Positions 5,814-23,408 of a stretch of 64,000 nucleotides of DNA are shown piece after piece. How positions within the stretch are numbered: the first letter of the stretch is position 1; each line of letters opens with the position of its first letter. The notes beneath the pieces are model-generated. The model did no database searches. It was given only the letters and a program-made list of their open reading frames with translations, and was not told where the DNA came from. Origin of the DNA: Flavobacterium sp. (lineage in GTDB: Bacteria; Bacteroidota; Bacteroidia; Flavobacteriales; Flavobacteriaceae); NCBI RefSeq assembly GCF_017744675.1, contig NZ_JAGIAV010000004.1, positions 933,033-997,032 of the forward strand. The letters run 5' to 3'. The translations under genes and the position numbers were made by a program.

Positions 5814-6049
5814 TTACTGATAATAATTTAGATTAAGCTTTTTCCACAATTGTCACAACACTTACATTTATATTCTTAAATAAAAATTCTTTAATTTTTA
5901 AAAGCTTTAATATTTTCCATATAATTTAAAACATTATCCCTTCTTTATTTTTAATATCATGAATTTTGAAAATACTCTTCACTAATAGAAGAAGTAAGTA
6001 TACCGCGCTGTGAATAAAATAGTTTAATGTGTTATCATATATTTTTTTA

Positions 6050-6074
6050 AAAGAGCTGCTTTTGACAGCTCTTT
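6050..6074. repeat. Hairpin, copy 1 of a pair (AAAGAGCTG stem)
   Basis: A perfect 9-bp stem (6050-6058 with 6066-6074) has a 7-nt loop and flanking T-runs. A near-identical hairpin occurs at 6964-6988. The two bracket a stretch that contains a decayed gene tail. They may be terminators of lost genes or ends of a small repeat. Confidence 0.5.
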
Positions 6075-6958: not shown

Positions 6959-6963
6959 ATTAA

Positions 6964-6988
6964 AAGAGCTGTCTTTACAACAGCTCTT
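6964..6988. repeat. Hairpin, copy 2 of a pair (AAGAGCTGT stem)
   Basis: A perfect 9-bp stem (6964-6972 with 6980-6988) has a 7-nt loop, and the stem core is almost the same as at 6050-6074. It sits at the 5' edge of the decayed gene tail and about 120 bp downstream of the M16 peptidase stop, so it may also serve as that operon's terminator. Confidence 0.5.
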
Positions 6989-7111
6989 AAATTCCTTTCG
7001 AAAAATGAATTACTAATTCAAGTTTTAAAATAAAAGGCCGAAAAAGCGAAAATCTACACTTATAATTTTGTTGCTTTCTTTAAAATTTTATCAACTTTAA
7101 AAGATTCCAAT

Positions 7112-9886
7112 TTAATCCAAAGAACCCGCTTTGATGATAATCATTTTGTCGAGCTTAATGTATTTTTTAATCGCATCGTTTACTTGCTGCAAGGTTGCTT
7201 TCTCAATATCTTTTGGAAATTGTTCGATGTAACTCGGCTCTAAACCTCTATCCATAAAGTTCAAAATGGTTCCTGCCATTCCGTTTGTGGTCGCCATGCT
7301 TACTTTAAAACTTCCGATCAGGTTGGTTTTCTTGTTTTCCAGTTCCTCTGCCGTGATGCCGTCTTTTACCCATTTGCTGACCTGAACCATTGTAGCGTCC
7401 AGTCCTTGTTGAAATAAGGCTGGATTAAACGAAGCGTTTACAAACCAGTAACCTCCTGTTGTGATATTTCCGCCCAAGTCTGATGAAATATCATACGTTA
7501 ATCCGTCGTTGTCACGAACCGTCTGCATCAAACGTCCTGCAAAACCGGCGCCAAGAGCATAATTTCCAATGAAAAACGGAATATAATCCGCGTCTGCCCT
7601 TTTTAGACCTGTATATTGTCCGATAAACAATTCCGCGCTTGGTTTCTCTGGAATTGTAATTACCTGGGTTGTGGAAGCTGCTTTTTTCGCTTCTTCAAAC
7701 TTCATGTTTTCTACCACGCCGCCACTCCAGTTTTTGAATGATTTCTTTAAAGAATTATTCAAATTAGCGCCTTCTGTATCGCCTACAATCACTAAATGCA
7801 TCGAATCTGGTCCGAAATATTTTTTATGAAATGCTTTTACTTCTTCTAAAGTGGCATTTTTAATATTCGCCAAATCTTCCTCCACACTTAAACTGTAATT
7901 CGGATTTGCTTTTGGATAAATTGCCTGGGCCAGGGCAATGCTTCCTCTCTCTTTCGGATCGTTCAGGTTTTCTTGTACATTTCCGGTAAATTGCAGTTTT
8001 AAATTTTCGAATTCCTTCTGGTCAAAAAGCGGGTTTCTTACTTCTTCTGCCAATAAAACAATTACCTGATCCAGGTCTTTTTTCAAACATTTAAATCCAA
8101 TATTGATTTTGGTCGTTGAAGCATTAATATTGATATCTACACCCAGTTTCTGCAGTTTTTCAGAAAACTTAAATTTATTGTTTAAAGTGGTTCCTTTAGA
8201 CAGCATCGAAACTGTTAAGGAAGGAATCATCAAATTTTTCCCTTCATTGGCATAATTCCCAAGTGAAATACTCGCTGCAACGGTCACAAAATCTTTTGCT
8301 GAGGTTTTTACCGAAACGACATCAATTCCAGCAACCTTTTCTCTCCTATAAGCCGAAGTTCTTTTTTCAATTGTTATGGGATGTGAATCTGTTTCTTTTA
8401 CAGTTTTATTATCTGATTTGATAATATTTTCAGATACTTCTTCATTATCATGATTTTCATGATTTGGATGTCTGAAATAAAACGGTTCATTTTCCGGTTT
8501 AAAATTACTTGCTTTTGCCTGATCCCGATCATTTGATCCGGATTGTTCCGGAACAAAATATCCGGTTGTACTTTGATCTTCGACTAAATATTTTTGCGCT
8601 ACACGAAGTACATCTGCGGGTGTTACTTTCTTTAACCGGTCAACTCCCGTTACATAATCTGTCCAATCTCCTGATGCAATGGCTTCGTTTAAATCTGATG
8701 CAATTACGCCTGATCCGTCACGGCTCAAAATAGTCTGCGCACTAATTTTTGCCACTACGCGGTTTACTTCATCCTGTGTTACGCCGTCTTTCTGGATTTT
8801 CGCAATCACTTCGCTTATTTTCGCATCGATATCTTCGTGTTTTGAGGATGTCGGAAATCCAACGCCAATGGTAAAAAGTCCGACTTCTTTAAAATTGGTG
8901 GCATTTGCGTAAGCATAAATTCCCATTTGGGTATCCACGAAAGTTTTGCTTAAAACAGCCGAAGGGCCCGAACCGATAATTTCACCTAAAATATTCAAAG
9001 CTGGAAGATCTTCGTGCAATGCGCCTGGAATCTTAAAGGCTTTGTTTACAACGCCCAGTTCTCCTGGTTTTTTAACTACAATTATACGGGGTCCGTATTG
9101 TTGTGGTTCTTCGGTATAAGGCTGCGGCATTGGGTTTGGCGCTTTGGTGATTTTGCCGAAATACTGTTCGATTAATTCAAAAACATTTTCTTTTTTGAAA
9201 TCCCCGATGATCGTTAAAGTCGCATTGTCCGGCCAGTAATACGTATTGTAAAAATTATGCAATACCTCGATTGGGGCTTTTTCAATATCCGATTTCCACC
9301 CGATTGTCGAATGATGGTACGGATGCGCAATGTAGGCCGCCGCCCAGATTTCTTTATCCAGCAAACTGTTCGGATCGTTTTCCCCACGCTCAAATTCGTT
9401 GCGAACTACCGTCATTTCGGCTTCTTTATCTTCTTTCAACAATAAAGAATTGCGCATTCTGTCGGCTTCAATCTGCAAAGCCAGAGCAATTTTATCACTG
9501 GGTAAAGTTTCGTAATAATTGGTTCTGTCGTACCAGGTCGTGGCGTTTAATTCCGCACCAGTATTTTGTAAAACATCAGTAATCGTGCTTCCATTTTTTT
9601 TATTGAAAGTCGGTGTTCCTTTAAACATTAGATGTTCCAAAAGATGTGTGGATCCCGTATTTCCTAATACTTCATGTTTAGATCCTACACGATATACAAT
9701 CTGAACAGTTACAACAGGAGATACATTGTCCTGCAAAAGCAGCACATTCATGCCGTTAGGCTGATAAAAATATTCTTCAATTCCGCCTAACTCTTTTATT
9801 TTCTTAAAGTCAACTGCATTTCTCTGCGCAGATAATGCTGCACATATAGTAAATGAGCAAAGGCTCAAAATGATATTTTTTTTCAT
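7112..9886 (-). CDS. Secreted M16-family zinc metallopeptidase (fused two-half pitrilysin type)
   Basis: The 924-residue protein has a signal peptide (residues 1-20, ending LSAQ). Two M16 halves follow in one chain: an N-terminal catalytic half with the inverted zinc motif HLLEH (His81, Glu84, His85) and a third ligand near Glu164 (RNEFERGE), and a C-terminal half without HxxEH. A low-complexity acidic/His linker (about 455-500) joins them. The family cleaves peptides inside a closing clam-shell chamber, which favours short substrates. It is the last gene of the sigma-FecR-SusCD-thioredoxin locus, 203 bp after dsbD, so it may have its own promoter or be read through. In the periplasm it would trim imported peptides. 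That role is inferred from context. Confidence 0.92.
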   Translation of the reverse strand: MKKNIILSLCSFTICAALSAQRNAVDFKKIKELGGIEEYFYQPNGMNVLLLQDNVSPVVTVQIVYRVGSKHEVLGNTGSTHLLEHLMFKGTPTFNKKNGSTITDVLQNTGAELNATTWYDRTNYYETLPSDKIALALQIEADRMRNSLLLKEDKEAEMTVVRNEFERGENDPNSLLDKEIWAAAYIAHPYHHSTIGWKSDIEKAPIEVLHNFYNTYYWPDNATLTIIGDFKKENVFELIEQYFGKITKAPNPMPQPYTEEPQQYGPRIIVVKKPGELGVVNKAFKIPGALHEDLPALNILGEIIGSGPSAVLSKTFVDTQMGIYAYANATNFKEVGLFTIGVGFPTSSKHEDIDAKISEVIAKIQKDGVTQDEVNRVVAKISAQTILSRDGSGVIASDLNEAIASGDWTDYVTGVDRLKKVTPADVLRVAQKYLVEDQSTTGYFVPEQSGSNDRDQAKASNFKPENEPFYFRHPNHENHDNEEVSENIIKSDNKTVKETDSHPITIEKRTSAYRREKVAGIDVVSVKTSAKDFVTVAASISLGNYANEGKNLMIPSLTVSMLSKGTTLNNKFKFSEKLQKLGVDININASTTKINIGFKCLKKDLDQVIVLLAEEVRNPLFDQKEFENLKLQFTGNVQENLNDPKERGSIALAQAIYPKANPNYSLSVEEDLANIKNATLEEVKAFHKKYFGPDSMHLVIVGDTEGANLNNSLKKSFKNWSGGVVENMKFEEAKKAASTTQVITIPEKPSAELFIGQYTGLKRADADYIPFFIGNYALGAGFAGRLMQTVRDNDGLTYDISSDLGGNITTGGYWFVNASFNPALFQQGLDATMVQVSKWVKDGITAEELENKKTNLIGSFKVSMATTNGMAGTILNFMDRGLEPSYIEQFPKDIEKATLQQVNDAIKKYIKLDKMIIIKAGSLD

Positions 9887-10089
9887 TCTTTTATATTTTA
9901 AATTTCATTAAACATTCTTTATTTTATTTTTCTTCCCAGAGGCTTGATTATTAATTTCGATTTCTTCTTAATTATTTTTGCTATTTCCTGCTTCGTAACT
10001 TCGATAAAATCAAACTCATGCTTCCAATATTTCTTAAAGATTTGTAGCCGATACATAAAACAAAAAATAAGGTTTTCTAATTTCCTATA

Positions 10090-12012
10090 CTATTCAAAAT
10101 TTTTAATTCCTTCTTCCAGCCAGTTATTATAAAACTCGATATCTGGATTGTAAGCTGTTGGCTGATTTAATTTTTTTTCTTCATGATCAATCAAAACGTA
10201 ATATGGCTGTGCATTGGTTTTGTATTTGAGAATTTGAAATTCACTCCACCTCTGACCTGCATATTTCAATTTTTCCCCCGTAATTTCTGAGAAGAACTGT
10301 TCTGTTTCTGGAAGCGGACGTTTGTCATCTACGTACAGTGAAATTAAAACCACATCATTATTCAAATGCGATAAAATCCTGGGATCCGTCCAGACCCTTT
10401 CTTCCATTTTTCTGCAATTCACACAGGCAAATCCTGTAAAATCAAGAAGAACCGGTTTATTCACTTTTTTAGCATACGCCAATCCCGCTTCATAATCTCT
10501 AAAGACGGTAATTCCGTTTGGACCTTCTTCCGCTCCTTCAGGAAGGCTTGAAATAGTCTTGGTTTCTGCGGCTGCACTGCCCAATCCATAAGGAGATTCG
10601 CTGTATTGTTTTGGAGGAGAAAAACCGCTAATCCATTGCAGAGGAGCGCCCCATAAACCCGGAATCAAATAGATGGTGAAAGCCAATACTAGAATTCCGA
10701 AACCCAATCTTCCCACAGAAATATATTCTGAAGGAGAATCGTGCGCTAATTTTATTTTCCCGAAGAGATATAAAGTCAACGCAGCAAAAACGGCTATCCA
10801 AATAGAAAGAAATGTTTCTCTTTCCAGAAGATGTAATTGAAGTACCAAATCGGCATTACTCAAAAATTTAAATGCCAATGCCAACTCTAAAAACCCTAAT
10901 ACAACCTTAACCGAATTCAGCCATCCTCCCGATTTTGGAAGCGAATTTAACCAGCCCGGAAAAGCTGCAAAAAAAGCAAAAGGCAGCGCAATGGCCATCG
11001 AAAAGCCAAACATTCCGACAATGGGAGCCCAACCTCCCTGACCTGCCGCCTGAACCAGCAAAGTTCCGACAATTGGTCCTGTACAAGAAAAAGAAACTAA
11101 AGCTAAGGCCAATGCCATAAACAGAATTCCGATAATTCCGCTGGCTTGCGATTTTTCATCTATTTTGGTCAGCCATGAACTTGGAAGCACAATTTCAAAA
11201 GCACCTAAAAATGACAGGGCAAAAAAGATTAACAGTACGAAAAATATCAGATTGAAAGTGACATTGGTTGACAAAGCATTTAGGGAATCTGCTCCAAAAA
11301 TGGCAGTGACCAAAGTGCCCAAAGCCACATAAATAACAATTATTGCAATACCGTAAAGTAGTGCATTTTGAATACCAGTCGCTTTACTTTTACTCTGCTT
11401 GGTGAAAAAACTAACGGTCATCGGAATCATTGGAAAGACGCATGGCGTGAGTAAAGCAGCAAAACCGGATAAAAAAGAAATGATAAAAATGTTAAAAAGT
11501 CCTCTTTGATCTTCATTACCTTCTTTTTTTGAAACAACAGCAGCTTTTTTCTGAAACTTAACTGCTTTACTTAAATCAAAAACCAAGTCAAGATTCTGAA
11601 GTTCTGAAATAGCAGAAGAATTTCCTGCTGCAAAATCAACTGTTGCGTTGATTGTTTTTAACTCGTGCAAAAGGACAATTTTCTGTTTAAAAACAGCTTT
11701 ACTTTCAAAAAATTTCACTTTTGCTTTCAGAACAGGATCTTCTGCAATTTTTCCGTTTTCTTCTGTTGTATTTCCTACAAGAAAAAAACCGCCTTCGCTG
11801 TCATCAAATACAAAAGTTGTTGCCAAGTTGCTTTTAGCAGGAATATTCTGCGAATACAAATGCCAGCCGGCATCCATTTTTGCTTCTGCGGATAAAATGT
11901 ATTCTGTATCAGAGATTTTTTCTACGACCGTTTTCCATAAGAGAGGCGCTGTCTTTTGTCCGAAACTTAATGTCACGGTCAAAAGCGTCATTAAAAAAAA
12001 TATATTTTTCAT
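10090..12012 (-). CDS. dsbD: DsbD-type transmembrane thiol:disulfide reductase whose alpha domain lacks its cysteines
   Basis: The 640-residue protein has a signal peptide, an N-terminal DsbD-alpha-like domain (about 20-140), a hydrophobic core of about eight helices (about 165-470) and a C-terminal thioredoxin-like gamma domain. The membrane core keeps its two cysteines (LLTPCVFPMIP and SFSCTGPIVG), and the gamma domain keeps CVNC (Cys530, Cys533). The alpha domain has no cysteine pair: the expected position reads DFAAGNSSAI. The family moves electrons from cytoplasmic thioredoxin to periplasmic thioredoxin-fold proteins. The gene directly upstream (12 bp gap) is a stand-alone alpha domain that still has both cysteines, so the exit step has probably moved to that protein. 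Likely clients are the TlpA-like proteins in the same operon. Confidence 0.93.
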   Translation of the reverse strand: MKNIFFLMTLLTVTLSFGQKTAPLLWKTVVEKISDTEYILSAEAKMDAGWHLYSQNIPAKSNLATTFVFDDSEGGFFLVGNTTEENGKIAEDPVLKAKVKFFESKAVFKQKIVLLHELKTINATVDFAAGNSSAISELQNLDLVFDLSKAVKFQKKAAVVSKKEGNEDQRGLFNIFIISFLSGFAALLTPCVFPMIPMTVSFFTKQSKSKATGIQNALLYGIAIIVIYVALGTLVTAIFGADSLNALSTNVTFNLIFFVLLIFFALSFLGAFEIVLPSSWLTKIDEKSQASGIIGILFMALALALVSFSCTGPIVGTLLVQAAGQGGWAPIVGMFGFSMAIALPFAFFAAFPGWLNSLPKSGGWLNSVKVVLGFLELALAFKFLSNADLVLQLHLLERETFLSIWIAVFAALTLYLFGKIKLAHDSPSEYISVGRLGFGILVLAFTIYLIPGLWGAPLQWISGFSPPKQYSESPYGLGSAAAETKTISSLPEGAEEGPNGITVFRDYEAGLAYAKKVNKPVLLDFTGFACVNCRKMEERVWTDPRILSHLNNDVVLISLYVDDKRPLPETEQFFSEITGEKLKYAGQRWSEFQILKYKTNAQPYYVLIDHEEKKLNQPTAYNPDIEFYNNWLEEGIKNFE

Positions 12013-12024
12013 AAAATCCTTATA

Positions 12025-12471
12025 TTATCTAATTTTAAAAACCAGTTCTGTCTGTTTTGGCGGAAGACATTTTGTATCGTCGCAGGCCATAAACTCAACC
12101 ATTCCTTTGATTTGCTGCGGTATTTCATTTTTCGTTTTTATGCGCTGTTTAAAGATGGTTTTATTAACGAAATACTTAATTTTTACTCCATAAATCGGAT
12201 CATCAACAACATCTCCTTCTTCTTCTTTTGTGTTGCCTTTTTTTAAATATTCGCCTTTTCCATCAAAAGAAAATTTGGTACCTAGCGGCCCGTTTTTGGG
12301 AACTTCCTGCGAATACAAATGCCAGCCTTTTTCGATAGATGCTTTAATTATTAATTCATATTCTGATTCCGATATTTTTACCACACTTGTAGTCCATTTA
12401 ACCGGATTATATACCTGAGCGTTACCGCTTATTGCAAAACACAATAGTAGAAATGAAATTATTTTTGCCAT
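12025..12471 (-). CDS. Stand-alone DsbD alpha-domain protein, cysteines intact
   Basis: This 148-residue periplasmic protein has a signal peptide (about 1-18) and one immunoglobulin-like DsbD N-terminal domain. It parallels the N-domain of the next gene (both have GWHLYSQ, followed by P-G-TxFxFD blocks). The C-terminal end carries MACDDTKCLPP, matching the C-x5-C active pair of DsbD-alpha (shown for E. coli DsbD). It lies 12 bp before dsbD and so is surely co-translated. It probably accepts electrons from DsbD and passes them to TlpA-type proteins, replacing the cysteine-free fused domain. Assignment of the domain is firm; the relay is inference. Confidence 0.85.
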   Translation of the reverse strand: MAKIISFLLLCFAISGNAQVYNPVKWTTSVVKISESEYELIIKASIEKGWHLYSQEVPKNGPLGTKFSFDGKGEYLKKGNTKEEEGDVVDDPIYGVKIKYFVNKTIFKQRIKTKNEIPQQIKGMVEFMACDDTKCLPPKQTELVFKIR

Positions 12472-12537
12472 TTTTTTTATATTTTTATGTAAATTTTACC
12501 TGTCTTAAGCAATTATAAAACAGATAAATTTTGTTTT

Positions 12538-13746
12538 CTATTTTGAGAATATCACTTTAAGATCCCGATCCATTCTGGCGTCATCTTTTTCGCCGCCATC
12601 GTATCTTGCCACGATAATTCCATTAGGATCAACCAGAATTTTTGTAGGCAGTAAACTAATGTTATACCCTTCGCTGATATCCTGATCTAGATTTATTCTT
12701 TCATAGGTTCCTTCTTTGTACTGCACTCCTGCCAAAACATGACGCCAGACTCCGATACCGTCTTTTTCGACTGCTTTTTTCCATTTATCTTTATCATCAT
12801 CATCAGCAGCAACACCTAAAATTTCCAATCCTTTTGGTTTGTATTCTGCATAAACTTTTAATAAATGCGGATTTCCTTTTCTGCAAGGCACACACCACGA
12901 CGCCCAAAAATCAATCAAAAGGTATTTACCTCTAAAATCTTCTAATTTCAATGGATTTCCGTTGATGTCTTTTGTTTTAAAGGAGCCTGCCGGAGCGCCT
13001 GCAATGCCTTTTTTCATTTTTTCGATTTCCTTTAAAAGATTTTTTGCTGCCTCAGTATTTGCATATTGAGGATTTATATTCTTATAATAACCTTTAGCTT
13101 CATCATAAGTCATATCATTTAAATTAAATACCATTATGTTTAAGATTAGATACGATTTTGGATTCTCTTTGATAAACTTTAACGAAGCTTTAGTCATTTC
13201 TGCGTAGGCAGGCTCTAAGAATTCTTTCGCATCATTTATTTCATATTTGATGGCTTCTGTTGTTTTCTCGTCTTTTTTTGCAGCTGCAGCTTCCGTATAT
13301 TTTTTAGATAACTCATCGACTTTATCAAATTCTTTTTGATATTTTTTCTTAATCTGATCTAGTATTGCTTGATATTTGTAATTTTCATCCTGAGTTTTTG
13401 ACCCCGTTAATTTTGCTTTTCTAAAATCAGCGTAATCAACTTTAAGGATTTGTTTTCCAGGCTCTGCATAAAGAGATATAAAGCTTTTTTCATCCTCATA
13501 ATCTATTTCCGTATTTTTCGCTATTGCAAGATCGAGAACCGGTTCTGTCAAAGTGCTTTCTATTTTAAATTTACCGTTTTTCACTTCAATTGGCTGAGCT
13601 CCTTTGTCCAGATAAGCATATATTTTACCGTTTGATAATCCGGTAATTGTTCCATCAATATGGAACTTTTGCTGTGCCGCCGTTGTAAAAGCAACCAGCA
13701 GCATCATACTTAAAATGACGATTCTTTTTATACTTAAATGTTTCAT
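12538..13746 (-). CDS. TlpA-family thiol-disulfide oxidoreductase with DUF4369-like N-domain (copy 2)
   Basis: The 402-residue protein has a signal peptide (about 1-24), a DUF4369-like beta domain (about 28-120), a helical linker rich in Lys and Glu (about 125-245) and a TlpA/AhpC-type thioredoxin domain with WASWCVPC. The family reduces or isomerises disulfides in periplasmic or outer-membrane clients. The C-terminal domain is nearly identical to that of the upstream paralogue 13800-15017, while the N-terminal half has diverged. It sits 53 bp after that paralogue and 66 bp before the DsbD-alpha gene, in one operon with SusC/SusD. Confidence 0.92.
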   Translation of the reverse strand: MKHLSIKRIVILSMMLLVAFTTAAQQKFHIDGTITGLSNGKIYAYLDKGAQPIEVKNGKFKIESTLTEPVLDLAIAKNTEIDYEDEKSFISLYAEPGKQILKVDYADFRKAKLTGSKTQDENYKYQAILDQIKKKYQKEFDKVDELSKKYTEAAAAKKDEKTTEAIKYEINDAKEFLEPAYAEMTKASLKFIKENPKSYLILNIMVFNLNDMTYDEAKGYYKNINPQYANTEAAKNLLKEIEKMKKGIAGAPAGSFKTKDINGNPLKLEDFRGKYLLIDFWASWCVPCRKGNPHLLKVYAEYKPKGLEILGVAADDDDKDKWKKAVEKDGIGVWRHVLAGVQYKEGTYERINLDQDISEGYNISLLPTKILVDPNGIIVARYDGGEKDDARMDRDLKVIFSK

Positions 13747-13799
13747 AATTATTTTATTTTTTTTTCAGTACTTAAATTACTGATACTACTTTTAATGCT

Positions 13800-15017
13800 T
13801 TATTTCTTTGCAAAAATGGCTGCCAGATCCTGATCCATTTTTTTATCATCATCTTCTGCCCCATCATATCTTGCTACAATCATTCCCTTAGGATCTACCA
13901 GAATTTTTGTAGGCAGTGAACTAATGTTATACCCTTCGCTGATATCCTGATCCAGATTTATTCTTTCATAGGTTCCTTCTTTGTACTGCACTCCTGCCAA
14001 AACATGGCGCCAAACTCCGATACCGTCTTTTTCGACTGCTTTTTTCCATTTATCTTCATTTTCATCATCATGAGCAACACCTAAAATTTCCAATCCTTTT
14101 GGTTTGTATTCTTCATACAATTTTAATAAATGCGGATTTCCTTTTCTGCACGGTACGCACCAGGAAGCCCAAAAATCAATCAGAACATATTTCCCTTTAA
14201 AGTCTTCTAGTTTTAAAGGATTTCCGTTGATGTCTTTGGTCTTAAAAGGTCCTGCCGCAGCGCCTGGGATTCCCTTTTTCATTTTTTCTATATCGGCAGC
14301 TAAACTTTCGGATAATTCCCCTTTTTTATACAACGGATTGAAACTATCATAATAGGATTTTGCTTCTGCGTAAGTAAGTTTATCAGTATAAATACTCAAT
14401 AAATACATGCTGTAGTACGACTGCGGATTGTCTTTCATAAATTTAATATGTACTTCTTCAGTTTCCTTGTACATCGGCCATAACAGCGATCTTGCGTCGT
14501 TAGATTCGTATTTAATGGCTTCCAATACTTCTTCACTCTTTTTAGCGTTTACTGCATCATCATACTTTTTTTCTACCGCATCAAAATGATCCAGTTCCTT
14601 CTTATATTTTAGGCGAATTTTATCTGTAATAGCAGTACATTTAAAAACATCTTCCTGAGTTTTGGAGCCTTTCATTTTTGTAATCGAAAAATCAGCATAA
14701 TTTAGCTGTAAAGTCATCGGTGCGGCTTCCACAAAAAATGACACATAGGCTTTGTCGATCATCTCTCTTTCGTCTGAAGTTTTTGCCAATCCCATATATT
14801 CGACCGGAGCTTGCAATTCGCCAGAAATATGGAATTTACCTTTTGTGACCTGGACCGAATCAATTTTACTTTCGGTAAGCATATAAATTTTACCGTCGCT
14901 AAATCCTGTTATTGTACCATCTATTTTATATTTTCCCTGTGCTTCACATATTATAGGAAAACCTTGAAATAGCAGAAATAAAATCGCTGTTCTATTTATG
15001 ATGCTTAGATTTTTCAT
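13800..15017 (-). CDS. TlpA-family thiol-disulfide oxidoreductase with DUF4369-like N-domain (copy 1)
   Basis: I choose the ATG at 15017 (405 codons). It starts a normal signal peptide (MKNLSIINR..., Ala cleavage near FPIICEAQ) and avoids overlap with the upstream gene, which stops at 15034; an in-frame ATG at 15047 would overlap it. The domain order is the same as its neighbour: DUF4369-like beta domain, helical linker, thioredoxin domain with WASWCVPC. A block of about 45 residues around VEKDGIGVWRHVLAG is essentially identical to the neighbour, a sign of recent duplication or gene conversion. It is probably a client of the DsbD encoded downstream. Confidence 0.9.
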   Translation of the reverse strand: MKNLSIINRTAILFLLFQGFPIICEAQGKYKIDGTITGFSDGKIYMLTESKIDSVQVTKGKFHISGELQAPVEYMGLAKTSDEREMIDKAYVSFFVEAAPMTLQLNYADFSITKMKGSKTQEDVFKCTAITDKIRLKYKKELDHFDAVEKKYDDAVNAKKSEEVLEAIKYESNDARSLLWPMYKETEEVHIKFMKDNPQSYYSMYLLSIYTDKLTYAEAKSYYDSFNPLYKKGELSESLAADIEKMKKGIPGAAAGPFKTKDINGNPLKLEDFKGKYVLIDFWASWCVPCRKGNPHLLKLYEEYKPKGLEILGVAHDDENEDKWKKAVEKDGIGVWRHVLAGVQYKEGTYERINLDQDISEGYNISSLPTKILVDPKGMIVARYDGAEDDDKKMDQDLAAIFAKK

Positions 15018-15033
15018 TACAGTTTCTTTAAAA

Positions 15034-16242
15034 TTATAAACTCTCAATTTTAGATTTTAAATCCAGTATACCGACATCTGTATCTTCACCTTTATCCGAA
15101 ATTTTCTTAATGTACGTGTTTATATTTTCTAAACCTTTTGCTTTGTTTCGTGTTTTCAGATAAAGGCTCGCCAGACAATAATTTACAGAAAGTGCTTCTG
15201 GATAAGAATCTTTAGTATTTTCAATCATTGCAATCGCTCTTTCTTCAAGTCCAGCATTATTTAAATCAGGGTTAACAGCCACACTGTAAGCTGTATCGAT
15301 GTATGAATCCAATGCTTCTTTCTGATTTTTTGCAAATGCTTCGTCTGCTTGTTTTTTATTAAATTCAAACCATTTAATATATTGCTTTTGTGCTAAGTAG
15401 TATTGTCCATAATAATATGTTTTATATTCACTCTGCTGCGGTGAAACAAAATCTTTAGCTGTTTCTGCGATTGCATTGTCTAATTCCGGCAGTGTCTTTG
15501 TTGTGGCAACTTCTACTAAATAATTAGATATGGCTGTTTCAATTAAATTATTGTAGTTTTCTTTTCCGATATATGATTTGTCAATAAAAGCTTTTTTATT
15601 TTTGATCATGTAATTATAGATTTTACTTTTATACTCAATTCCGGCATGGGCAATAACAGTAAAACCATCTTCTGTTGTATACTGCTCTGGTTTCATTGTT
15701 GAAATAACCTCTCTGCCTACTTTTTCTACAGATTCCAAGTTGTAAGCTGTATATAATGCCTTTATATATTGAGCCACAAAAGGCAGATCACGTTTTCCCC
15801 ACTGGTATTGTCTCTCCAGATTGTTTAATTGTTTGGAAGGATCGAAAGCTATCTTTGCCTGCTCAATAAAATCCTCTGCTTTCTCTGCCCCTGTGGCCCT
15901 GTGGACTACTTTGCCATCAGCATCCATAAAAAGCAGTGTTGGATAAGCGCTTACACTGTATGTTTTTGTCAATTCGACTCCTTCGCCTTTTTCCATATCC
16001 ATCTTGATACTTACAAAATTGGCATTCATATAATCTCCAACATTCTGCTGTGGAAATATATCTCTGGCCATCATTTTACAAGGGCCGCACCAAGTGGTAA
16101 AACAATCCATAAAAACCAGTTTCTTTTCTGTTTTGGCCTTTGCCAGAACTTCCTTAAATGTGCTGTGCTCAAAGGAAATTCCCTGTGCGCTCAATTTTGG
16201 CAGCACCAATAACATTACTACTGTAATTGCAATTTTTTTCAT
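15034..16242 (-). CDS. Periplasmic thioredoxin-like protein with long helical C-terminal domain
   Basis: The 402-residue protein has a signal peptide (1-20) and a thioredoxin domain (about 22-140) with CFTTWCGPCKMM (Cys52, Cys55). The remaining 260 residues are mostly helical and look like TPR-type repeats (FVAQYIKALYTAYN..., ALSVNYCLASLYLKTRNKAKG). Thioredoxin plus helical repeats usually means a redox module attached to a binding scaffold. It lies 185 bp after susD, behind a stem-loop, and 16 bp before the first TlpA gene. The specific client is not known. Confidence 0.88.
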   Translation of the reverse strand: MKKIAITVVMLLVLPKLSAQGISFEHSTFKEVLAKAKTEKKLVFMDCFTTWCGPCKMMARDIFPQQNVGDYMNANFVSIKMDMEKGEGVELTKTYSVSAYPTLLFMDADGKVVHRATGAEKAEDFIEQAKIAFDPSKQLNNLERQYQWGKRDLPFVAQYIKALYTAYNLESVEKVGREVISTMKPEQYTTEDGFTVIAHAGIEYKSKIYNYMIKNKKAFIDKSYIGKENYNNLIETAISNYLVEVATTKTLPELDNAIAETAKDFVSPQQSEYKTYYYGQYYLAQKQYIKWFEFNKKQADEAFAKNQKEALDSYIDTAYSVAVNPDLNNAGLEERAIAMIENTKDSYPEALSVNYCLASLYLKTRNKAKGLENINTYIKKISDKGEDTDVGILDLKSKIESL

Positions 16243-16375
16243 TTTTTGTTGATTAAAGATTTGTTGTTATTATGATTTTTTTCAAAATGCCTTAATAAAA
16301 AGACATAATCTGGGCCGTTCACTTATTAAAAAACAAGTGATTTCTTACATTATAAAATTCAAAGTGAAATACAAA

Positions 16376-16413
16376 GTTAGAGAAGCATTATAGAGGAAAA
16401 GCACTTCTCTAAC
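16376..16413 (-). terminator. Stem-loop 14 bp after susD (attenuator or mRNA-stabilising hairpin)
   Basis: A perfect 10-bp inverted repeat (16376-16385 and 16404-16413, gttagagaag / cttctctaac) has an 18-nt loop and begins 14 bp past the susD stop. On the coding strand it is followed by ctttgtattt rather than a clean U-tract, so partial termination or 3' protection of the susCD message is more likely than a full stop. Confidence 0.5.
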
Positions 16414-16427
16414 CTGTAATTTAAAGT

Positions 16428-17924
16428 TTAATACGATGGATTTTGTTTAATAACACGATTTCCGGCATCTATAGATTCTGTTGGAATCGGCAAGATAAAT
16501 TTATCAGGATTTAGGGCTGATGCTTTTACATCTGAGACTTTAAAGCCTTTTCCAAATCCGTCGGCATAATCATATCGTATTAAGTCAAACCAAGACTCGC
16601 CTCCCTCGGCATACAATTCTGCTAATTTTTCATAACGGACTGCTGTTAAAAACTGTGCTAAAGTAATGGTACTTGGATAGGTTTCAAAACCATTGCCTCC
16701 TGTGGTAGTTGCACCGGCCCTGATTCTAATGGTATTTATTGCCTGAAGCGCTTGCGGCGTTACGGCATTATTGGCCCTTGCACTGGCTTCAGCTAGAATC
16801 AAATACACTTCTGCCATACGCATATGATAGAAGAACTCTTTTGTTCCCGGTGTAGATTCATTAGTGTATTTAGTGGTGTAAAAGCCTCCGTACGTAAAAT
16901 TTCTTACAAAAGCGGATGTTCTGGAAGCATCATAGGTAATGGTTTGTGATCCTACAGTCATACTTCCTGCGATAGCATTTTTATAAACTTGCGAAATAGT
17001 GGCATCATATCCGTCGTATCCCGCCCCCATTCCTACTTCTGCACCAGATTCTCCTGCTGTTCCAAATAAAACTTCTGAACTGGTAAAAATAGCATCAGAA
17101 TCATGTTCATCAAAAATGGCTCCGTAGGTTGGTTCTAATTTAAAATTTGAACCTCCCTTAGCAATAATGTCCTCACACAAAATTGCTGCATTGGCATAAT
17201 CTCCTTTATACAATAGCACTCTTGCTTTTAAACCTTTTGCAAATGTTTTATTGGTGTATTTTTTACTTCTTAAATCTGGAGCATTTGCAATTCCTTCATC
17301 CAAATCTTCGATTATCGCTGTGTAAGTTTCTGCAACCGTATTTCTTGGTGTTATTTTTGAATTTTTTACCGGTGCAGTACGAACTAAAATTCCGTATTCT
17401 GAATTAACATCGTAAAATTGTCCAAAAGTACGCAAGAGATAAAAATGTCCCAAAGCTCTCAAAATTTTAGCTTCGGCCAAAATCTCTGTTTTTCTTCCCG
17501 GATTAGTGAAAACCTTATTATCTAATTGAGATACTTTCTCTATAAGCCAATTGGTGCGATTGATTAAATCATACAAACCGCTGTAGATCAACTTTGTATA
17601 TCGAGATCCTGTTGCAATCGGATTATTAGTCGCCCAGCCAACATATTCGGATCCCGTACGGACTGAACCATTATTACTATATCCACTCATGATATCATGT
17701 ACTACGTAAAATGTTGGAAACGCTTGGGGGGAACTTTGCTGTCTAAAAGTAGAATAAGCCCCCGTCAGTGCTAATTCTGCGGACAATTGACTATTAATGG
17801 CCGTATCAACCTCTAATGCATAAGGCGGTTTGTAATTGTCTAAATCTTCCGTTAATTGGCACGAAACTGCAATAAGCATTGCTGCACTTACTAAACCTAT
17901 GTATATATATTTTAAATTCTTCAT
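16428..17924 (-). CDS. SusD/RagB-family outer-membrane lipoprotein
   Basis: The 498-residue protein has a lipoprotein signal with the cysteine at residue 22 (LIAVSCQLTED). TPR-like helices follow (ARVLLYKGDYANAAILCEDII), as does the usual C-terminal end YEKLAELYAEGGESWFDLIRY ... NPDKFILPIP, which is diagnostic for SusD. It caps the SusC barrel at the cell surface and binds the substrate. It lies 31 bp after susC. The sequence does not show which ligand is bound. The peptidase and thiol reductases downstream suggest a peptide or protein rather than a glycan, and no glycoside hydrolase is near. Confidence 0.93.
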   Translation of the reverse strand: MKNLKYIYIGLVSAAMLIAVSCQLTEDLDNYKPPYALEVDTAINSQLSAELALTGAYSTFRQQSSPQAFPTFYVVHDIMSGYSNNGSVRTGSEYVGWATNNPIATGSRYTKLIYSGLYDLINRTNWLIEKVSQLDNKVFTNPGRKTEILAEAKILRALGHFYLLRTFGQFYDVNSEYGILVRTAPVKNSKITPRNTVAETYTAIIEDLDEGIANAPDLRSKKYTNKTFAKGLKARVLLYKGDYANAAILCEDIIAKGGSNFKLEPTYGAIFDEHDSDAIFTSSEVLFGTAGESGAEVGMGAGYDGYDATISQVYKNAIAGSMTVGSQTITYDASRTSAFVRNFTYGGFYTTKYTNESTPGTKEFFYHMRMAEVYLILAEASARANNAVTPQALQAINTIRIRAGATTTGGNGFETYPSTITLAQFLTAVRYEKLAELYAEGGESWFDLIRYDYADGFGKGFKVSDVKASALNPDKFILPIPTESIDAGNRVIKQNPSY

Positions 17925-17955
17925 TTCTATCTTTTTTAGAATAATTTACTATTAA

Positions 17956-20900
17956 CTAGAAAGTAACATTTAATGAAAATGTAAAAGTTCTTATGTTTGG
18001 GTAAGAGGCTCCGTTGTCACTTGTAAAACCAGTTGATCTGTTTGCAAAAGAAGTCTTAACAACATCTTCTGGATCTAGTCCCGGATAATCTGAAATTGTG
18101 ATTAAATTATTTCCGCTCAAAATCAGCCTTACTTTAGTAATACCCGTATCTTTAAATAAGCTAGATGGTAAATTGTATCCAATAGAAGCAGAACGCAGTT
18201 TTATGTAAGAAGCATCTACAATCGACCTTGACGTAGCTTGTGTATCTCCGTGTGTTGGCGAACCATATCTCGCATAAGGTGCATTTGTATTTTCTGATGT
18301 CCAGGTATCAAAAAACTCACGAGTACGATTGTTGAACGTATCTAAGTCGTCCAGCCTAGAAATTTTATCATATTGTCTCCGCGCTCCTTGAGAAAAGTTC
18401 CAGTTCATAGAAAAATCCCAATTTTTATAAATTATCGAATTGTTCCATCCGCCAAAATAATCCGGATTAATATCTCCAATTGGTCCTCTGTCATCTGTTG
18501 TAATTTTTCCGTCGCCGTTAATATCTTTAAAAATATAATCTCCGGGCTGTGTCAGTGTATTTTGATATGTACCTCCGGCTGAAATATTCAAGGCATCAAT
18601 TTCTGCTTGTGTCTGCGCAATTTTAATTACATCATAACCAGTAATTAAACCAAGAGGCTTTCCTTCGATAAGTACTGTATCTTCTAGTCTGGCTCCATAA
18701 AGATGTTCTACATTGTTTTTTAAAGTTGCAATATTGAAAGAAGAATTCCATCTGAAGTTTTTGTCTCTAATGATATCCACTCCAATTAAAAACTCCCATC
18801 CTCTGTTTGAAACATCAGCAACATTGGTATTCCAGCTGATTGATCCCGTTTCGTAAGGAAGCGGTGTAAATAAGATAATTCCAGATGTGTTTTTTTGAAA
18901 ATACCCCAACTCTGCTGTTACACAATTATTAAACATACTTAAATCAATTCCTAAATCCAGCTGGTCTGTTTCCTCCCATTTAATTTTGGAATTTGGAACT
19001 CCTGTAACCGTTATACCATTTTGCCCGTCATACAAAGAATCTCCGTTTGCTAAGGATTTATAATACGCTAAATAGGTAAATGACGGAAGATTGTCTGATC
19101 CCGTTCTTCCCAGCGAAGCTCTTAATTTTAATTGATTAATAAAAGAAACTTCTTTTAAGAAATCTTCATTATGCATATTCCAGGCCAAAGCAACAGAAGG
19201 AAAGAAACCATAACGATTGTCTGGTCCAAACTTTGTTGATCCATCTCTTCTTGCCGTAAATGTGGCTAGATATTTTGATTTGTAACTGTAATTTACCCTT
19301 CCAAATATTGAATTAAGTCCTTGTTCTAAACTTTCACTTGAAACACCATCCGCAAAATTAGCAGAACCGATATTGATCAAAATATCATCATCCGGAAAAC
19401 CTCTGTATCGGTAGGCATTAGCATCATATCTTGTTCGGTTCCATGAAACTCCGGCAACAGCATCAATTCTATGATCTTCGTTTATGGTTTTATTGTAACT
19501 CAACATATTTTCAAAAGCAGTTGTCCAGCTTTCATTATACTGAATAGATAATCTTGCTCCTGGTCTGTTTTCCTTCTTTGCATAATATATATTTTCGAAA
19601 CTTTTTGAAGTATAAAATTGATTGGACTCATCTGAATTTACAGAAACATTTAATTGAGATTTAAATTTAAGCCCGTTTATAATTTGAACTTCTCCATAAA
19701 TAGAGCCTAACAGGTTTTTTGAAATCGCTTTTTTTCTATCCTGCATTCCATCCCCCAAAGCGGTATATTGCTCACCAAAAATCCCATTATAAGCGAAGTA
19801 AGAACCATCTTCATTATAAGCTGGAAGATCTGGTCTGAAACTTCCAATATCTAAAGATGAAAACCCTTTATTTTTATTGATAGAATAGTTATAATTTACA
19901 GATCCTCCAACTTTAAAATAATTGGTTACATTGACGTCTAAATTGGTACTGAATGTGTAACGTTTAAAATCATTTTCGATCATGACACCCTGCTGATCCT
20001 GTATTCCGGCAGACATCATATAATTTACATTATCTGTTCCTCCGTTTACATTAAAACTGTATTGTGTCCATAAGGCATTTTTATTGGTAATTAAATCTTG
20101 CCAGTTTGTATTTGCTTTTCCAAAATAAGTATCTGGATTATTCACTATTGCATAATGCTTTGGAAAATCAGGCCAAGACATTTTAGGATAAAGATTTAAA
20201 TATTGTTGAGCAATATTCACTGAAATCTTTTTGTAATCATCTGCAGATAAATAGTCATACATTTTTACCGGATTCTGAAAAGTACTCGATGCATTAAAAG
20301 AAAATCTCGGCGCCTGATTTCTCTTTCCTCTTTTTGTAGTGACGATAATTACCCCGTTTGCCGCTCGCGATCCGTAAATTGCTGCCGCAGATGCATCTTT
20401 TAAAACATCAATACGCTCCACATCGTCAGGATTAATAGCCAAAAGCGGATTTTCCCTTGAACCGTAATTTATTAATCCTAAACTTTCAGAGTTTGGTGTA
20501 ATCGTGATTGGCGTTCCGTCAATAACATACAAAGGCTGGTTATCCCCTCTTATCTGTGTTAAACCGCGAATGTTAACAGAAGAACCTGCTCCAGGAGCAC
20601 CACCTCTGCTTGAAACATTCACACCCGCAATTTTTCCGATCAAAGCGTTATCGATTGTCTGTGTTTTAATCTGCTGGATATCCTCTGAAGTAATAGAACC
20701 TACAGAACCTGTAAGATCCTTCTTTTTGGTTGTTCCATACCCTACAACCATTACTTCTTCAAGAGCACTTACTTCTTCTTTTAAAATAATAGCATAAATT
20801 GTTTTACTTATTGTTATTTCTTCAGTATAAAATTGAAATCCCATACCGCTTGCAACCAAATAATAACCCACTTCGGCCGTAATACTAAAGCTGCCATCAA

Positions 20901-21429
20901 AATCTGTTGTCGTTCCTCTGATTATAAAGTTTTTAACTATTTCTGTTCCAGTTGGTTTATAACTGGAAACATATACCGTAATTCCTGGAACCGGCTGTCC
21001 ATTTGTATCTGTAACTTTACCTTTTATTTCTATTGTTTGACCGTTTTTTTCTTTTTGAATGGAAACTTCTTTAATAATTATCGTATTATTTGACGCCATT
21101 TCGTATTTAAAATTTCCCTTTGAAAGACTCTTTTCTAAAAGTGTATTTACACTAATTGCTCCTTTTTCAAGTTTAATCTTAGGAAGATCATCAAACATAT
21201 CAGAACGATATACAAATCTGTACTTGGTTTGTTTTTTAATGATTTCGAAAACTTCGTCAACGGTTGCTTCTTGGTTGTTTTTTATGACAACTTTAACATT
21301 TTGAGATAATAGTTCTACTGGTGTGAAACTAAAAAGCCCCAGAGAAAGAAAAAGAATAATGGTTCGCATAATTAAAGTTGAAATGCTTTTTCTTTTAAAG
21401 AAAACAGCTTTAATAATTTTAATTTTCAT
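17956..21429 (-). CDS. SusC/RagA-family TonB-dependent importer with STN signalling domain
   Basis: The 1157-residue protein has, in order: a signal peptide (second possible start ATG at 21369, MRTIILFLSL); an STN domain (about 45-115, VDEVFEIIKKQTKYRFVYRS); a carboxypeptidase-regulatory-like beta domain (about 135-215); a plug (about 225-350, TonB box region EEVMVVGYGTTKKKDLTGSV and the typical VLKDASAAAIYGSRAANGVI); and a large beta barrel ending ...TFSLNVTF. The STN domain is the part that talks to FecR in trans-envelope signalling. That fits the FecR/sigma genes just upstream and suggests substrate-induced expression. It is the importer of the pair with SusD. Confidence 0.95.
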   Translation of the reverse strand: MKIKIIKAVFFKRKSISTLIMRTIILFLSLGLFSFTPVELLSQNVKVVIKNNQEATVDEVFEIIKKQTKYRFVYRSDMFDDLPKIKLEKGAISVNTLLEKSLSKGNFKYEMASNNTIIIKEVSIQKEKNGQTIEIKGKVTDTNGQPVPGITVYVSSYKPTGTEIVKNFIIRGTTTDFDGSFSITAEVGYYLVASGMGFQFYTEEITISKTIYAIILKEEVSALEEVMVVGYGTTKKKDLTGSVGSITSEDIQQIKTQTIDNALIGKIAGVNVSSRGGAPGAGSSVNIRGLTQIRGDNQPLYVIDGTPITITPNSESLGLINYGSRENPLLAINPDDVERIDVLKDASAAAIYGSRAANGVIIVTTKRGKRNQAPRFSFNASSTFQNPVKMYDYLSADDYKKISVNIAQQYLNLYPKMSWPDFPKHYAIVNNPDTYFGKANTNWQDLITNKNALWTQYSFNVNGGTDNVNYMMSAGIQDQQGVMIENDFKRYTFSTNLDVNVTNYFKVGGSVNYNYSINKNKGFSSLDIGSFRPDLPAYNEDGSYFAYNGIFGEQYTALGDGMQDRKKAISKNLLGSIYGEVQIINGLKFKSQLNVSVNSDESNQFYTSKSFENIYYAKKENRPGARLSIQYNESWTTAFENMLSYNKTINEDHRIDAVAGVSWNRTRYDANAYRYRGFPDDDILINIGSANFADGVSSESLEQGLNSIFGRVNYSYKSKYLATFTARRDGSTKFGPDNRYGFFPSVALAWNMHNEDFLKEVSFINQLKLRASLGRTGSDNLPSFTYLAYYKSLANGDSLYDGQNGITVTGVPNSKIKWEETDQLDLGIDLSMFNNCVTAELGYFQKNTSGIILFTPLPYETGSISWNTNVADVSNRGWEFLIGVDIIRDKNFRWNSSFNIATLKNNVEHLYGARLEDTVLIEGKPLGLITGYDVIKIAQTQAEIDALNISAGGTYQNTLTQPGDYIFKDINGDGKITTDDRGPIGDINPDYFGGWNNSIIYKNWDFSMNWNFSQGARRQYDKISRLDDLDTFNNRTREFFDTWTSENTNAPYARYGSPTHGDTQATSRSIVDASYIKLRSASIGYNLPSSLFKDTGITKVRLILSGNNLITISDYPGLDPEDVVKTSFANRSTGFTSDNGASYPNIRTFTFSLNVTF

Positions 21430-21482
21430 AATTTTGGTTTTGGTTTATCAGTTAATCTTGAATTAATTATAAGTCCTATCAC

Positions 21483-21525
21483 GGGAAAAGCTGGTTTGTA
21501 TTTAGACGTCCGAACCGCTTTTCCC
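21483..21525. terminator. Long hairpin between fecR and susC
   Basis: An inverted repeat gggaaaagc (21483-21491) and gcttttccc (21517-21525) is extended inward by tggtt/gaacc and lies in the 125-bp gap between the FecR stop and the susC start. The T-tract is on the plus-strand side, so it is not a classical terminator for the minus-strand operon. It could limit read-through from sigma/fecR into susC, so that susC relies on its own sigma-dependent promoter. Confidence 0.5.
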
Positions 21526-21554
21526 TTTTTTTATATCAACTTATAATCTCTTTC

Positions 21555-22712
21555 TTACTTAAAAATTACAGTTCTTTGGTTTATTTCATATGGTATATTG
21601 TTTGTGTTACTAATTATATTTAAAATTTCCTCTATTTTTTGGTTTTTGTCTAATATCCCGTTAAACGTAACATTTTCGGCAGCATGGTTTTTAAAAACAG
21701 TATTAATATCGTACCATCTTTCTAAAACTTTCATGATATCTTTTAATGGCATTTCCTGAAAACTAAAAATACCTTCCTTCCACGAAACCTCATTAAAAAC
21801 ATCTACGGCCGTCACACGAATTTTATGATCATCAACTATCGATTGTTTTCCGGGACTTAAAACAGTGGTATTAAAAGACCCCGATAAATTGACTTTACCT
21901 TCTACCAGAGTAGTATAAATCGCTGCCGATTCCAGATAGGCTTTTATATTAAATTCAGTCCCTAAAACTTCTATATTCTGATTGTGTGTCAAAACATTAA
22001 AATGTGAACCTTTATGAGCTGTACTTGGCGAAACATCAAAATAAGCTTCACCATAAACCAACTCTACCTCACGAGGTTTTCCGTCTGTAAAACTGACCGG
22101 GAATTTAAGTTTCGACTCCGAGTTTAACCAAACTCGGGTACCGTCTGCCAGTTTTAAAAAAAATTGACCTCCACGCGGTATTGTCAAGTAATTGTATGTT
22201 ATAGCTGCGTTGGCAGCTTCAATATTTTTATACGTGATATTAGTGCCGTTACTATGAACACCTTTCGAATTATATACAGTGCCTTTCCCTAAAACTACCT
22301 GCTCTCCGCTGGCAAGAACCAGAACTGCTTTATCTGTTCCCGGATTGATAAGTGCTTTTGCAACTACTTGTTTTTGAGGTTGATTTTCTTTTAAAATATC
22401 GCTTTTAAAGAAATAAAGTGTTGAAGCAAGCATTAAAACTGCAGCAGCAGCAGCGTATTTCCAAATATAAATTTTCTTTACAGAAACTTCAATTTTATCC
22501 TGAATTGCTGCCCAGCCTTCTTTTTTATCAATCTCGCTGACTAATGCCGCACGCTTCTGCACTAATTTTTTATCCGTAAGATGCTTCAATATGTATTCCT
22601 TATCCGAATCGCTAAAAAGATCGGACTCATGCAGTGCATCAGGTCTCTCAAGCTTTAGAATCGAGGAAGCTATACGATTACAAAGTTCAATTATATTTTT
22701 AAAAACAGACAT
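21555..22712 (-). CDS. FecR-family anti-sigma factor with DUF4974 C-domain
   Basis: The 385-residue protein has an N-terminal cytoplasmic sigma-binding region (about 1-80), one membrane helix (about 86-106, KYAAAAAVLMLASTLYFF), a periplasmic FecR domain (about 170-280, RGGQFFLKLADGTRVWLNS and GEAYFDVS) and a C-terminal DUF4974 domain (about 315-385, FQEMPLKDIMKVLERWYDI). It should bind the ECF sigma encoded 148 bp upstream and sense the STN domain of the SusC downstream. The three-gene order sigma, FecR, SusC is the standard cell-surface signalling layout. Confidence 0.95.
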   Translation of the reverse strand: MSVFKNIIELCNRIASSILKLERPDALHESDLFSDSDKEYILKHLTDKKLVQKRAALVSEIDKKEGWAAIQDKIEVSVKKIYIWKYAAAAAVLMLASTLYFFKSDILKENQPQKQVVAKALINPGTDKAVLVLASGEQVVLGKGTVYNSKGVHSNGTNITYKNIEAANAAITYNYLTIPRGGQFFLKLADGTRVWLNSESKLKFPVSFTDGKPREVELVYGEAYFDVSPSTAHKGSHFNVLTHNQNIEVLGTEFNIKAYLESAAIYTTLVEGKVNLSGSFNTTVLSPGKQSIVDDHKIRVTAVDVFNEVSWKEGIFSFQEMPLKDIMKVLERWYDINTVFKNHAAENVTFNGILDKNQKIEEILNIISNTNNIPYEINQRTVIFK

Positions 22713-22859
22713 CTTATAATGGTTTATTTATTACTAAGACGACAAAATGCAAAAGGAGGGTGAAAAAGAAGTGAAAAAAAATTATATTTTTTTTTTTAAG
22801 GCTATTACTTTACTTTGATTTTTGACAACATTATTAAAAAATAATTGCTTATAAAGAGA

Positions 22860-23408
22860 CTAATTCTGGATTTCAAATACAAATGCAATGATAAAAAAAG
22901 AATCTTTCAATAACGGTTTCAAACGCTTATAGGCTATTTTTTTTTGCGTCTTAATGGTATTTAAAGAAATCCCTAATTCTTCTGAAATTTCTGCATTGCT
23001 TAAACCCTTAATACTTAATTTTATAATCTGGGCACATTTTGCCGGTAACGTATTTACAGCTTTTTCTATTATAATGGAAGTTTCGGAAATTACAACCTCA
23101 CGCAAAAAAAACGGATCTGTTTCTAATTCTGCAATATCGGTTTTGCCAATAGACCCTATCGTTTGGTAGGGTTTACTTTTTAAATAATCCAGCGAGCGGT
23201 TTTTTACCGAAGTATAGAAATAAGATTTGATTGCAGCATTGTCATGAAAGGCTACTTTGTCTTCCCAAACTTTAATAAATACTTCCTGAACGATATCTTT
23301 TGAAATTTCTAAATCCTCAACATACTTATTAGAAAATAAGCACAACGAAGGATAGAGTGTATTAAAAAATCCCTTATATTCTTTTAATGTTAAAGGTTGC
23401 GCTTCCAT
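22860..23408 (-). CDS. ECF sigma factor (FecI-like) of the SusCD redox locus
   Basis: The 182-residue protein has region 2 at about 10-75 (LEISKDIVQEVFIKVWEDK) and region 4 at about 115-165 (LPAKCAQIIKLSIKGLSNAEI, then a helix-turn-helix). It is only moderately similar to the sigma at 449-1030, so the two should serve separate regulons. It is the first gene of the locus, and a 850-bp gap lies upstream. It probably drives the susC promoter and perhaps its own. Region 1.1 is absent, as expected for the class. Confidence 0.94.
   Translation of the reverse strand: MEAQPLTLKEYKGFFNTLYPSLCLFSNKYVEDLEISKDIVQEVFIKVWEDKVAFHDNAAIKSYFYTSVKNRSLDYLKSKPYQTIGSIGKTDIAELETDPFFLREVVISETSIIIEKAVNTLPAKCAQIIKLSIKGLSNAEISEELGISLNTIKTQKKIAYKRLKPLLKDSFFIIAFVFEIQN

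Follow-up and report, generated by a model that had tools for sequence, protein, structure and literature searches.

Loci built on a SusC/SusD (SusCD) pair are mostly read as glycan machines. For the import and digestion of proteins, the nearest published concept that we found is that of the Fus-type systems of Proteobacteria (FusA/FusC and YddB/PqqL; PMC6793856, PMC6071955), which, according to the accessible portions of these papers, place a TonB-dependent transporter gene beside that of a periplasmic M16 peptidase thought to process the imported protein. Here we describe a locus that joins a SusCD pair to thiol-disulfide reductases and an M16 peptidase, located in a 64,000-nucleotide stretch of the 5.5 Mb genome of a Flavobacterium sp. 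(C13:933033–997032; hereafter, the window). With moderate confidence, we read it as a regulated uptake locus in which disulfide-bonded polypeptides, the presumed substrate, would be imported, reduced, and digested. No description of a SusCD-TlpA-DsbD-M16 set was found in the literature searched, the coverage of which leaves out most subscription journals.

A ten-gene run with receptor, reductase, and peptidase genes

All ten open reading frames (ORFs) of the run lie on the minus strand at 7112–23408 of the window, and their positions and profile matches agree with the content and place given in a preliminary description made from the sequence alone. The run opens with an ECF sigma factor of the TIGR02985 family (22860–23408; 133.3 bits, cut-off 126.4) and a FecR-type anti-sigma regulator (21555–22712; domains FecR and FecR_C), both identified in profile searches, followed by a SusC/RagA-type TonB-dependent transporter (17956–21429; TIGR04056, 829.5 bits against a cut-off of 368.25) and a SusD/RagB lipoprotein (16428–17924; SusD_RagB, 83 against 23.1 bits, and SusD-like_3). 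The assignment of SusC is clear, whereas the STN domain that had been ascribed to it scores below the Pfam cut-off (E 0.0049, 17.1 against 28.4 bits); an STN match at E ≤ 1 is found in 26 of the 33 SusC N termini of the comparison set.

The receptor genes are followed by an exported thioredoxin (15034–16242; WCGPC), whose thioredoxin domain precedes a helical domain at about residues 135–402, and by two TlpA/DUF4369 reductases (13800–15017 and 12538–13746), each with a WCVPC motif and the domains DUF4369 and AhpC-TSA. For the first of these, the listed ORF starts at TTG 15047, and we prefer the ATG at 15017. The run continues with a free DsbD-alpha domain of 148 aa (12025–12471; CDDTKC, DsbD_N) and DsbD itself (10090–12012; DsbD_TM and Thioredoxin_7), and ends with a two-half M16 peptidase (7112–9886; two Peptidase_M16 and two M16_C domains, HLLEH at residue 81). 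Intergenic gaps across the run measure 12–203 bp, and the terminator-like sites on the minus strand fall within genes, none between genes of the run. The test for a polysaccharide utilization locus, the presence of a carbohydrate-active enzyme (CAZyme) or sulfatase, was negative for the ten proteins scanned; profile scans revealed no glycoside hydrolase, lyase, or sulfatase among them, as the preliminary description had it. The promoter motif TTTG-N17-22-TANNTTTG occurs 9 times in the window, against an expectation of 5.6, and sigma-70-type sites were not above shuffles; we base no claim on either.

Recurrence of the gene set with different receptors

The genome has 18 SusD matches besides that of the window. 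As controls, 16 windows of 18–20 kb covering all 18 were subjected to the same blastp test, and none of the 16 contained a full-length TlpA/Trx, DsbD, or M16 gene; one place has a weak 238-aa TlpA-like match, below the length cut. The association of genes at the locus exceeds chance. A second, divergent SusCD locus, on C11 (L071/L072, ~478–496 kb) and outside the list of 18 matches, has TlpA/Trx, DsbD, and M16 genes, in the order sigma-FecR-SusC-SusD-DUF4843-PKD-Trx-retropepsin-like-TlpA-M16-DsbD. The genome encodes three DsbDs, one at the window locus, one at the C11 locus, and a third elsewhere on C13, which has no SusD or M16 gene within the 18 kb fetched.

A survey of 199 genomes across the family recovered relatives of the window SusD at E ≤ 1e-60 in 10, and one of 299 genus genomes recovered them in 8, with the own genome included in both counts; the nearest named relatives are those of Flavobacterium phragmitis, F. 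chungbukense, and F. panacis (81–82% identical). Fifteen named SusD-relative loci were drawn from the genome collection. The SusD set comprises 28 non-redundant loci with SusD at least 32% identical; L046 and L053, which come from the genomes of L028 and L031, respectively, were dropped, and L057–L059 (SusD 22–25% identical) were excluded. The 28 loci share SusD ancestry and are therefore not independent. A TlpA/DUF4369-type or thioredoxin-type gene lies in the same-strand run after SusD in 27 of them, the 28th (L033) being cut by a contig end. Their fetched stretches contain the thioredoxin-helical type in 11 loci, DsbD in 12, a free alpha domain in 9, a class V aminotransferase in 5, and M16 in 14, of which 9 are closest to the window M16 and 5 to the C11 M16. 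The position of M16 is exceptional in L051, where it lies upstream of sigma, and in L045, where it follows a 584-bp gap. The TlpA-type match of L051 consists of DUF4369 and NHL repeats with no thioredoxin domain, and L050 looks alike. Other peptidase-like genes in related loci are S9 in L050 and L051 and an aspartyl-protease-like gene on C11. Conservation of the gene order in other Bacteroidota, on which the preliminary description had made its reading depend, was checked in this way, and the gene set recurs.

The recurrence is also visible from the peptidase. Among 121 genus genomes, 16 have a match to the window M16 at E ≤ 1e-200, and among 120 family genomes, 2 have one at E ≤ 1e-150, again counting the own genome in both. 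Sixteen M16 neighborhoods were fetched, and 14 (L108–L121) were counted. The order sigma-FecR-SusC-SusD-TlpA-TlpA-M16 is found in 14/14, with DsbD next in 13/14; L121 stops at a contig end. The M16s of these loci are 82–86% identical to that of the window; in local alignments with either receptor pair of this genome, their SusCs are 25–33% and their SusDs ≤31% identical. The neighborhoods not among the 14 are L123/L139 (G072), with no SusCD in 28 kb, and L122 (G213), in which a contig end leaves M16 residues 361–924; L028 holds residues 1–145 at another contig start, and the two pieces are probably one gene split by assembly.

Both receptor types are present in G240, whose own two M16s are 90% identical to one another and each 83% identical to that of the window; between its two receptor loci, the SusDs are 23%, the SusCs 26%, and the FecRs 32% identical. 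The grouping by receptor type preceded construction of the M16 tree; a first tree, which included the long branch L054, was rebuilt without it. The SusD tree separates the window type from the other type with 99–100% support. The M16s of the window type (W, the window, with L027, L045, and L048) do not form one clade; forcing them together costs 81.9 log-likelihood units (approximately unbiased test, p 1.8e-8), and holding only W, L027, and L045 together gives p 9e-6. Because the G240 pairs and the M16 tree conflict with the receptor types, these comparisons indicate that the M16 gene moved, or was homogenized, between loci with different receptors. Among our firmest statements is that the reducing and digesting genes, as judged from their sequences, constitute a module kept or passed on while receptors differ. 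The proposed link of the redox and peptidase genes to SusCD is upheld, since they are found together in many genomes and beside SusCD pairs that differ widely.

The redox line, the peptidase, and neighboring genes

The window DsbD has its membrane cysteines, C191 and C310, and a gamma-domain CVNC (residues 530–533). Its fused alpha domain has no cysteine before C191, and the pair sits instead in the separate 148-aa free alpha. DsbD cysteines were compared among proteins of at least 550 aa in the fetched stretches, shorter ones (e.g., L108, L110, L114, L115, and L117) being left out. A fused alpha without the pair together with a free alpha with CxxxxC was observed in the window, L027 (one stray cysteine in the fused alpha, pair missing), L028/L046, and L047, and the fused pair is kept in the other DsbDs examined and in L139. 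Cysteine pairs occur in both the fused and the free alpha in L055 and L139, a free alpha is present with no DsbD in the fetched locus in L045 and L048, and the fused alpha of the genome's third DsbD has the spacing CxxxC. These states could be rationalized as an evolutionary series, from duplication of the alpha domain, through loss of the pair in the fused copy, to loss of the whole DsbD.

The likely source of electrons at the locus is the thioredoxin reductase gene, trxB, upstream of the ten-gene run (27180–28127, minus strand; TIGR01292, 368 bits against a cut-off of 343.45; CAVC), the path from NADPH through TrxB and thioredoxin to DsbD being established biochemistry. It is a second copy, 94% identical to that on C14. 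Among 11 genomes, our own and ten chosen by hand, two copies are present in our own, G446, G478, and G485, and one in the other seven. All four two-copy genomes have one trxB near the locus, directly upstream of sigma in G478 and G446 and one gene away in G485, with pyruvate carboxylase between. The single trxB lies near the locus in G036 and the Mariniflexile genome, is not at the locus in G240, G213, G127, and G311, and lies ~24 kb off in G049. A 116–117-aa ORF beside trxB in G446, G478, and G485 was considered as a thioredoxin gene and dropped; that of G446 is DUF6122. The redox line looks dedicated to the locus, since the pair missing from the fused alpha is retained in the free alpha and the trxB upstream is an extra copy. 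The separate alpha domain ranks among the firmest of our new statements, and the extra linked trxB is less firm. The preliminary description mentions neither the missing pair of the fused alpha nor the trxB and aminotransferase genes.

Over alignment columns 300–375, in the reductase half, third codon positions of the two TlpA genes of the window are 92–96% identical; the N-terminal halves have diverged, with third codon positions 36–56% identical. The pattern resembles gene conversion limited to the catalytic half, and we would guess that the N-terminal halves bind different partners. The AlphaFold2 model of the thioredoxin-helical protein (pLDDT 88, pTM 0.61) folds as a thioredoxin to about residue 133, followed by helices to residue 402. 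A further exported protein of ~500 aa (496–506 aa), which we call X500, is conserved in 6/28 SusD-relative loci and has no copy in the window run; a second DsbD-alpha-like gene always precedes it in its six loci. Copies lie, for example, at L046:15942–17444 and L029:8740–10230. The X500 copies scanned matched no Pfam/NCBIfam family at E ≤ 0.01, with one weak, probably unrelated match at 0.013; judging by its sequence, a ThuA-like fold would be no more than a guess.

In terms of the peptidase, the 924-aa window M16 has the HXXEH motif and two M16/M16_C halves. Its nearest solved relatives are M16B active and inactive subunits. It matches 5euf at 4.4e-54 and 3amj at 4.1e-53, and its matches to FusC (2.7e-15) and PqqL (1e-13) show that FusC/PqqL is not its closest branch. 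Two M16 branches occur in loci of such design, since the M16s of the C11 locus and L054 fall in the PqqL/FusC branch. In the accessible part of a review (PMC12731061), one M16 is listed as degrading nodule-specific cysteine-rich peptides and another as cleaving insulin, cases that by analogy fit a disulfide-bonded polypeptide cargo without proving it.

Upstream of trxB, on the same strand, lies a class V aminotransferase related to SufS (28166–29665). Several related loci have homologs of it next to DsbD and M16 or between the two, and it may well belong to the system. The gene between trxB and sigma encodes a pyruvate phosphate dikinase (PPDK; 24255–27053, minus strand). A second PPDK copy (2395–5148, minus strand) is 57% identical to it, and the two, which flank the locus, are the only ones in the genome. 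SVRSGSRAS has changed to SVQSSSHIL and GICGEHAGE to SIRSEHGRE in the second copy; we take these to be active-site motifs, and this copy is, on its sequence, probably a pseudoenzyme. In two genomes the gene separating trxB from sigma codes for an enzyme that uses pyruvate, namely PPDK in the window and pyruvate carboxylase in G485 (L137:10209–13646), which may, speculatively, point to gluconeogenesis from amino acids. An AT-rich stretch with no gene (5814–7111), lying between the M16 gene and the degenerate PPDK, carries two similar hairpins at ~6050–6076 and 6963–6990 (AAGAGCTG...CAGCTCTT). Elsewhere in the window, a Flavo-1 RNA lies at 52333–52410 on the minus strand (Rfam RF01705, 67.3 bits against a gathering score of 42).

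Proposed function and comparison with known systems

In the reading that we favor, the cargo that SusCD brings into the periplasm would be a polypeptide or a peptide fragment, and STN, FecR, and sigma would couple expression to the substrate. NADPH would supply the electrons; TrxB would hand them to cytosolic thioredoxin, and this to DsbD, by way of its membrane and gamma domains. The next carrier would be the free DsbD-alpha, taking the part of the fused alpha domain, which has no cysteines. The free alpha would in turn reduce the two TlpA-like reductases and the thioredoxin-helical protein, these would open the disulfides of the substrate, and the chambered M16 peptidase would then digest the unfolded chain. 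The reducing and digesting module would serve several very different SusCD receptors. We infer the direction of the electrons, the nature of the substrate, the order of the steps, and induction. The reductases are unlikely to serve disulfides of SusC, SusD, or M16, since each of these has one cysteine outside the signal peptide or lipobox. The main proposal of the preliminary description, import of a cysteine-rich or disulfide-linked polypeptide followed by its reduction and digestion, is plausible and strengthened by these results, short of proof.

A bolder form of this reading, which we offer tentatively and hold to be possible at best, is a reductive import machine as a Fus-type counterpart. 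A transferable periplasmic module of Bacteroidota, consisting of a dedicated TrxB-DsbD-free alpha-TlpA relay and M16, would plug into unrelated SusCD pairs, whole small disulfide-bonded proteins would enter, periplasmic reduction would unfold them, and M16 would trap and digest them.

Several observations weigh against uptake of disulfide-bonded polypeptides. Many SusD relatives are accompanied by TlpA/Trx only, with no DsbD or M16 in the fetched stretch (e.g., L034–L037, L039–L041, L049, L052, and L056), and in L139 (G072) no SusCD accompanies the genes for M16, a free alpha, DsbD, TlpA, and the aminotransferase within 28 kb. The loci most closely related to that of the window, in G240 and G213, belong to genomes whose single trxB is far away, as is that of two genomes with the other receptor type. 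Nor does the receptor separate peptide from glycan. The AlphaFold2 model of SusD (pLDDT 84, pTM 0.88), in two comparisons with the PDB, did not separate peptide and glycan binders; it resembles importers of glycan, peptide, and protein alike (3kez, Z 39.0; 3mcx, 38.9; ButD, 37.0; a laminarin binder, 36.1; RagB, 32.4), and a levan binder is also among its neighbors. Comparison of SusC with its solved relatives, the levan transporter BT1763 among them, did not favor peptide over glycan.

Two giant proteins also count on this side and lead to the first alternative, in which the relay would work for the bacterium's own envelope. Secreted or surface proteins, such as large type IX-secreted repeat proteins, would have their disulfides reduced or shuffled by DsbD, TlpA, and the free alpha, with SusCD only a frequent neighbor. 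A 2242-aa protein with 17 HYR-like four-cysteine domains and 89 cysteines follows DsbD in G142 (L042:1–6726), and a 4236-aa SprB-repeat protein with 100 cysteines lies upstream of M16-alpha-DsbD, with no SusCD, in G072 (L123:189–12899); at these two loci, this speaks for action of the relay on endogenous proteins. A 2025 paper (PMC12635249, accessible part) reports outer membrane proteins attached by disulfides in connection with gliding and type IX secretion. However, L042 and L123 are the only loci among those examined to show giant repeat proteins, the window run has none, the genome has its separate third DsbD elsewhere, and SusCD is present in 14/14 of the loci found through M16, which leaves this alternative unlikely.

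Metal piracy, in which SusCD would import an iron or other metalloprotein and reduction and M16 digestion would free the metal, is a shade less likely again. The PqqL/FusC-branch M16s of the C11 locus and L054 are in keeping with it. For some Fus-like clusters, cytochrome c peroxidases were proposed to reduce the imported protein and free its iron cofactor (Grinter et al., PMC6793856, accessible text). The window M16, however, belongs to the other branch (5euf 4e-54 against FusC 3e-15), the run has no iron-uptake gene, and the receptor is SusC-type.

Uptake of a glycan or glycopeptide, with the thiol genes incidental, could appeal to BT1763 and the laminarin and levan binders named above, but is improbable given the nearly constant TlpA/Trx association and the absence of a glycoside hydrolase, lyase, sulfatase, or other CAZyme from the window proteins and the scanned, otherwise unassigned run genes of related loci (two 98–99-aa ORFs unscanned). 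Equally improbable is the scavenging of sulfur from small thiols or short cysteine peptides (glutathione, cystine peptides) for a cytosolic desulfurase-like enzyme, which might be suggested by the aminotransferase, found upstream in the window and also within the runs of L029, L030, L031, L038, and L055; a 924-aa chambered M16 and SusCD exceed the needs of a tripeptide, and the aminotransferase is far below the SufS cut-off (TIGR01979, 144.8 against 475.1 bits).

If uptake of disulfide-bonded polypeptides is correct, it would mean that these bacteria use polypeptides locked by disulfides as food and bear the cost of opening them. The locus would offer a test system for protein and peptide uptake in Bacteroidota, a natural example of a DsbD with its functional alpha domain on a separate chain, and a guide to interpreting SusCD loci without CAZymes.

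The window locus shares with Sus-like polysaccharide utilization loci a SusC-SusD head, with sigma and FecR genes as its putative control, but has reductases and a peptidase in place of a CAZyme or sulfatase. The peptide importer RagAB and the BfUbb-binding ButCD are SusCD-type and, according to the titles of PDB entries 6sln and 8ypt, peptide- or protein-bound; the window SusD and SusC align with them, although SusD is closer to 3mcx and 3kez and not close to RagB or ButD. The window DsbD has the membrane cysteines, gamma CxxC, and alpha-domain fold of the DsbD transmembrane reductant conductor, but its working alpha is a separate protein and its fused alpha lacks cysteines. With respect to Fus-type systems, the idea of reducing imported cargo is not new, since the Fus authors suggest that cytochrome c peroxidases reduce imported protein; the words thioredoxin and disulfide are absent from the main text of PMC6793856, as far as that text is accessible. 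The M16 of the C11 locus falls in the PqqL/FusC branch, as in the Fus systems, whereas the present design has SusC/SusD rather than FusA, a dedicated thiol relay, and, in the window, an M16 of another branch.

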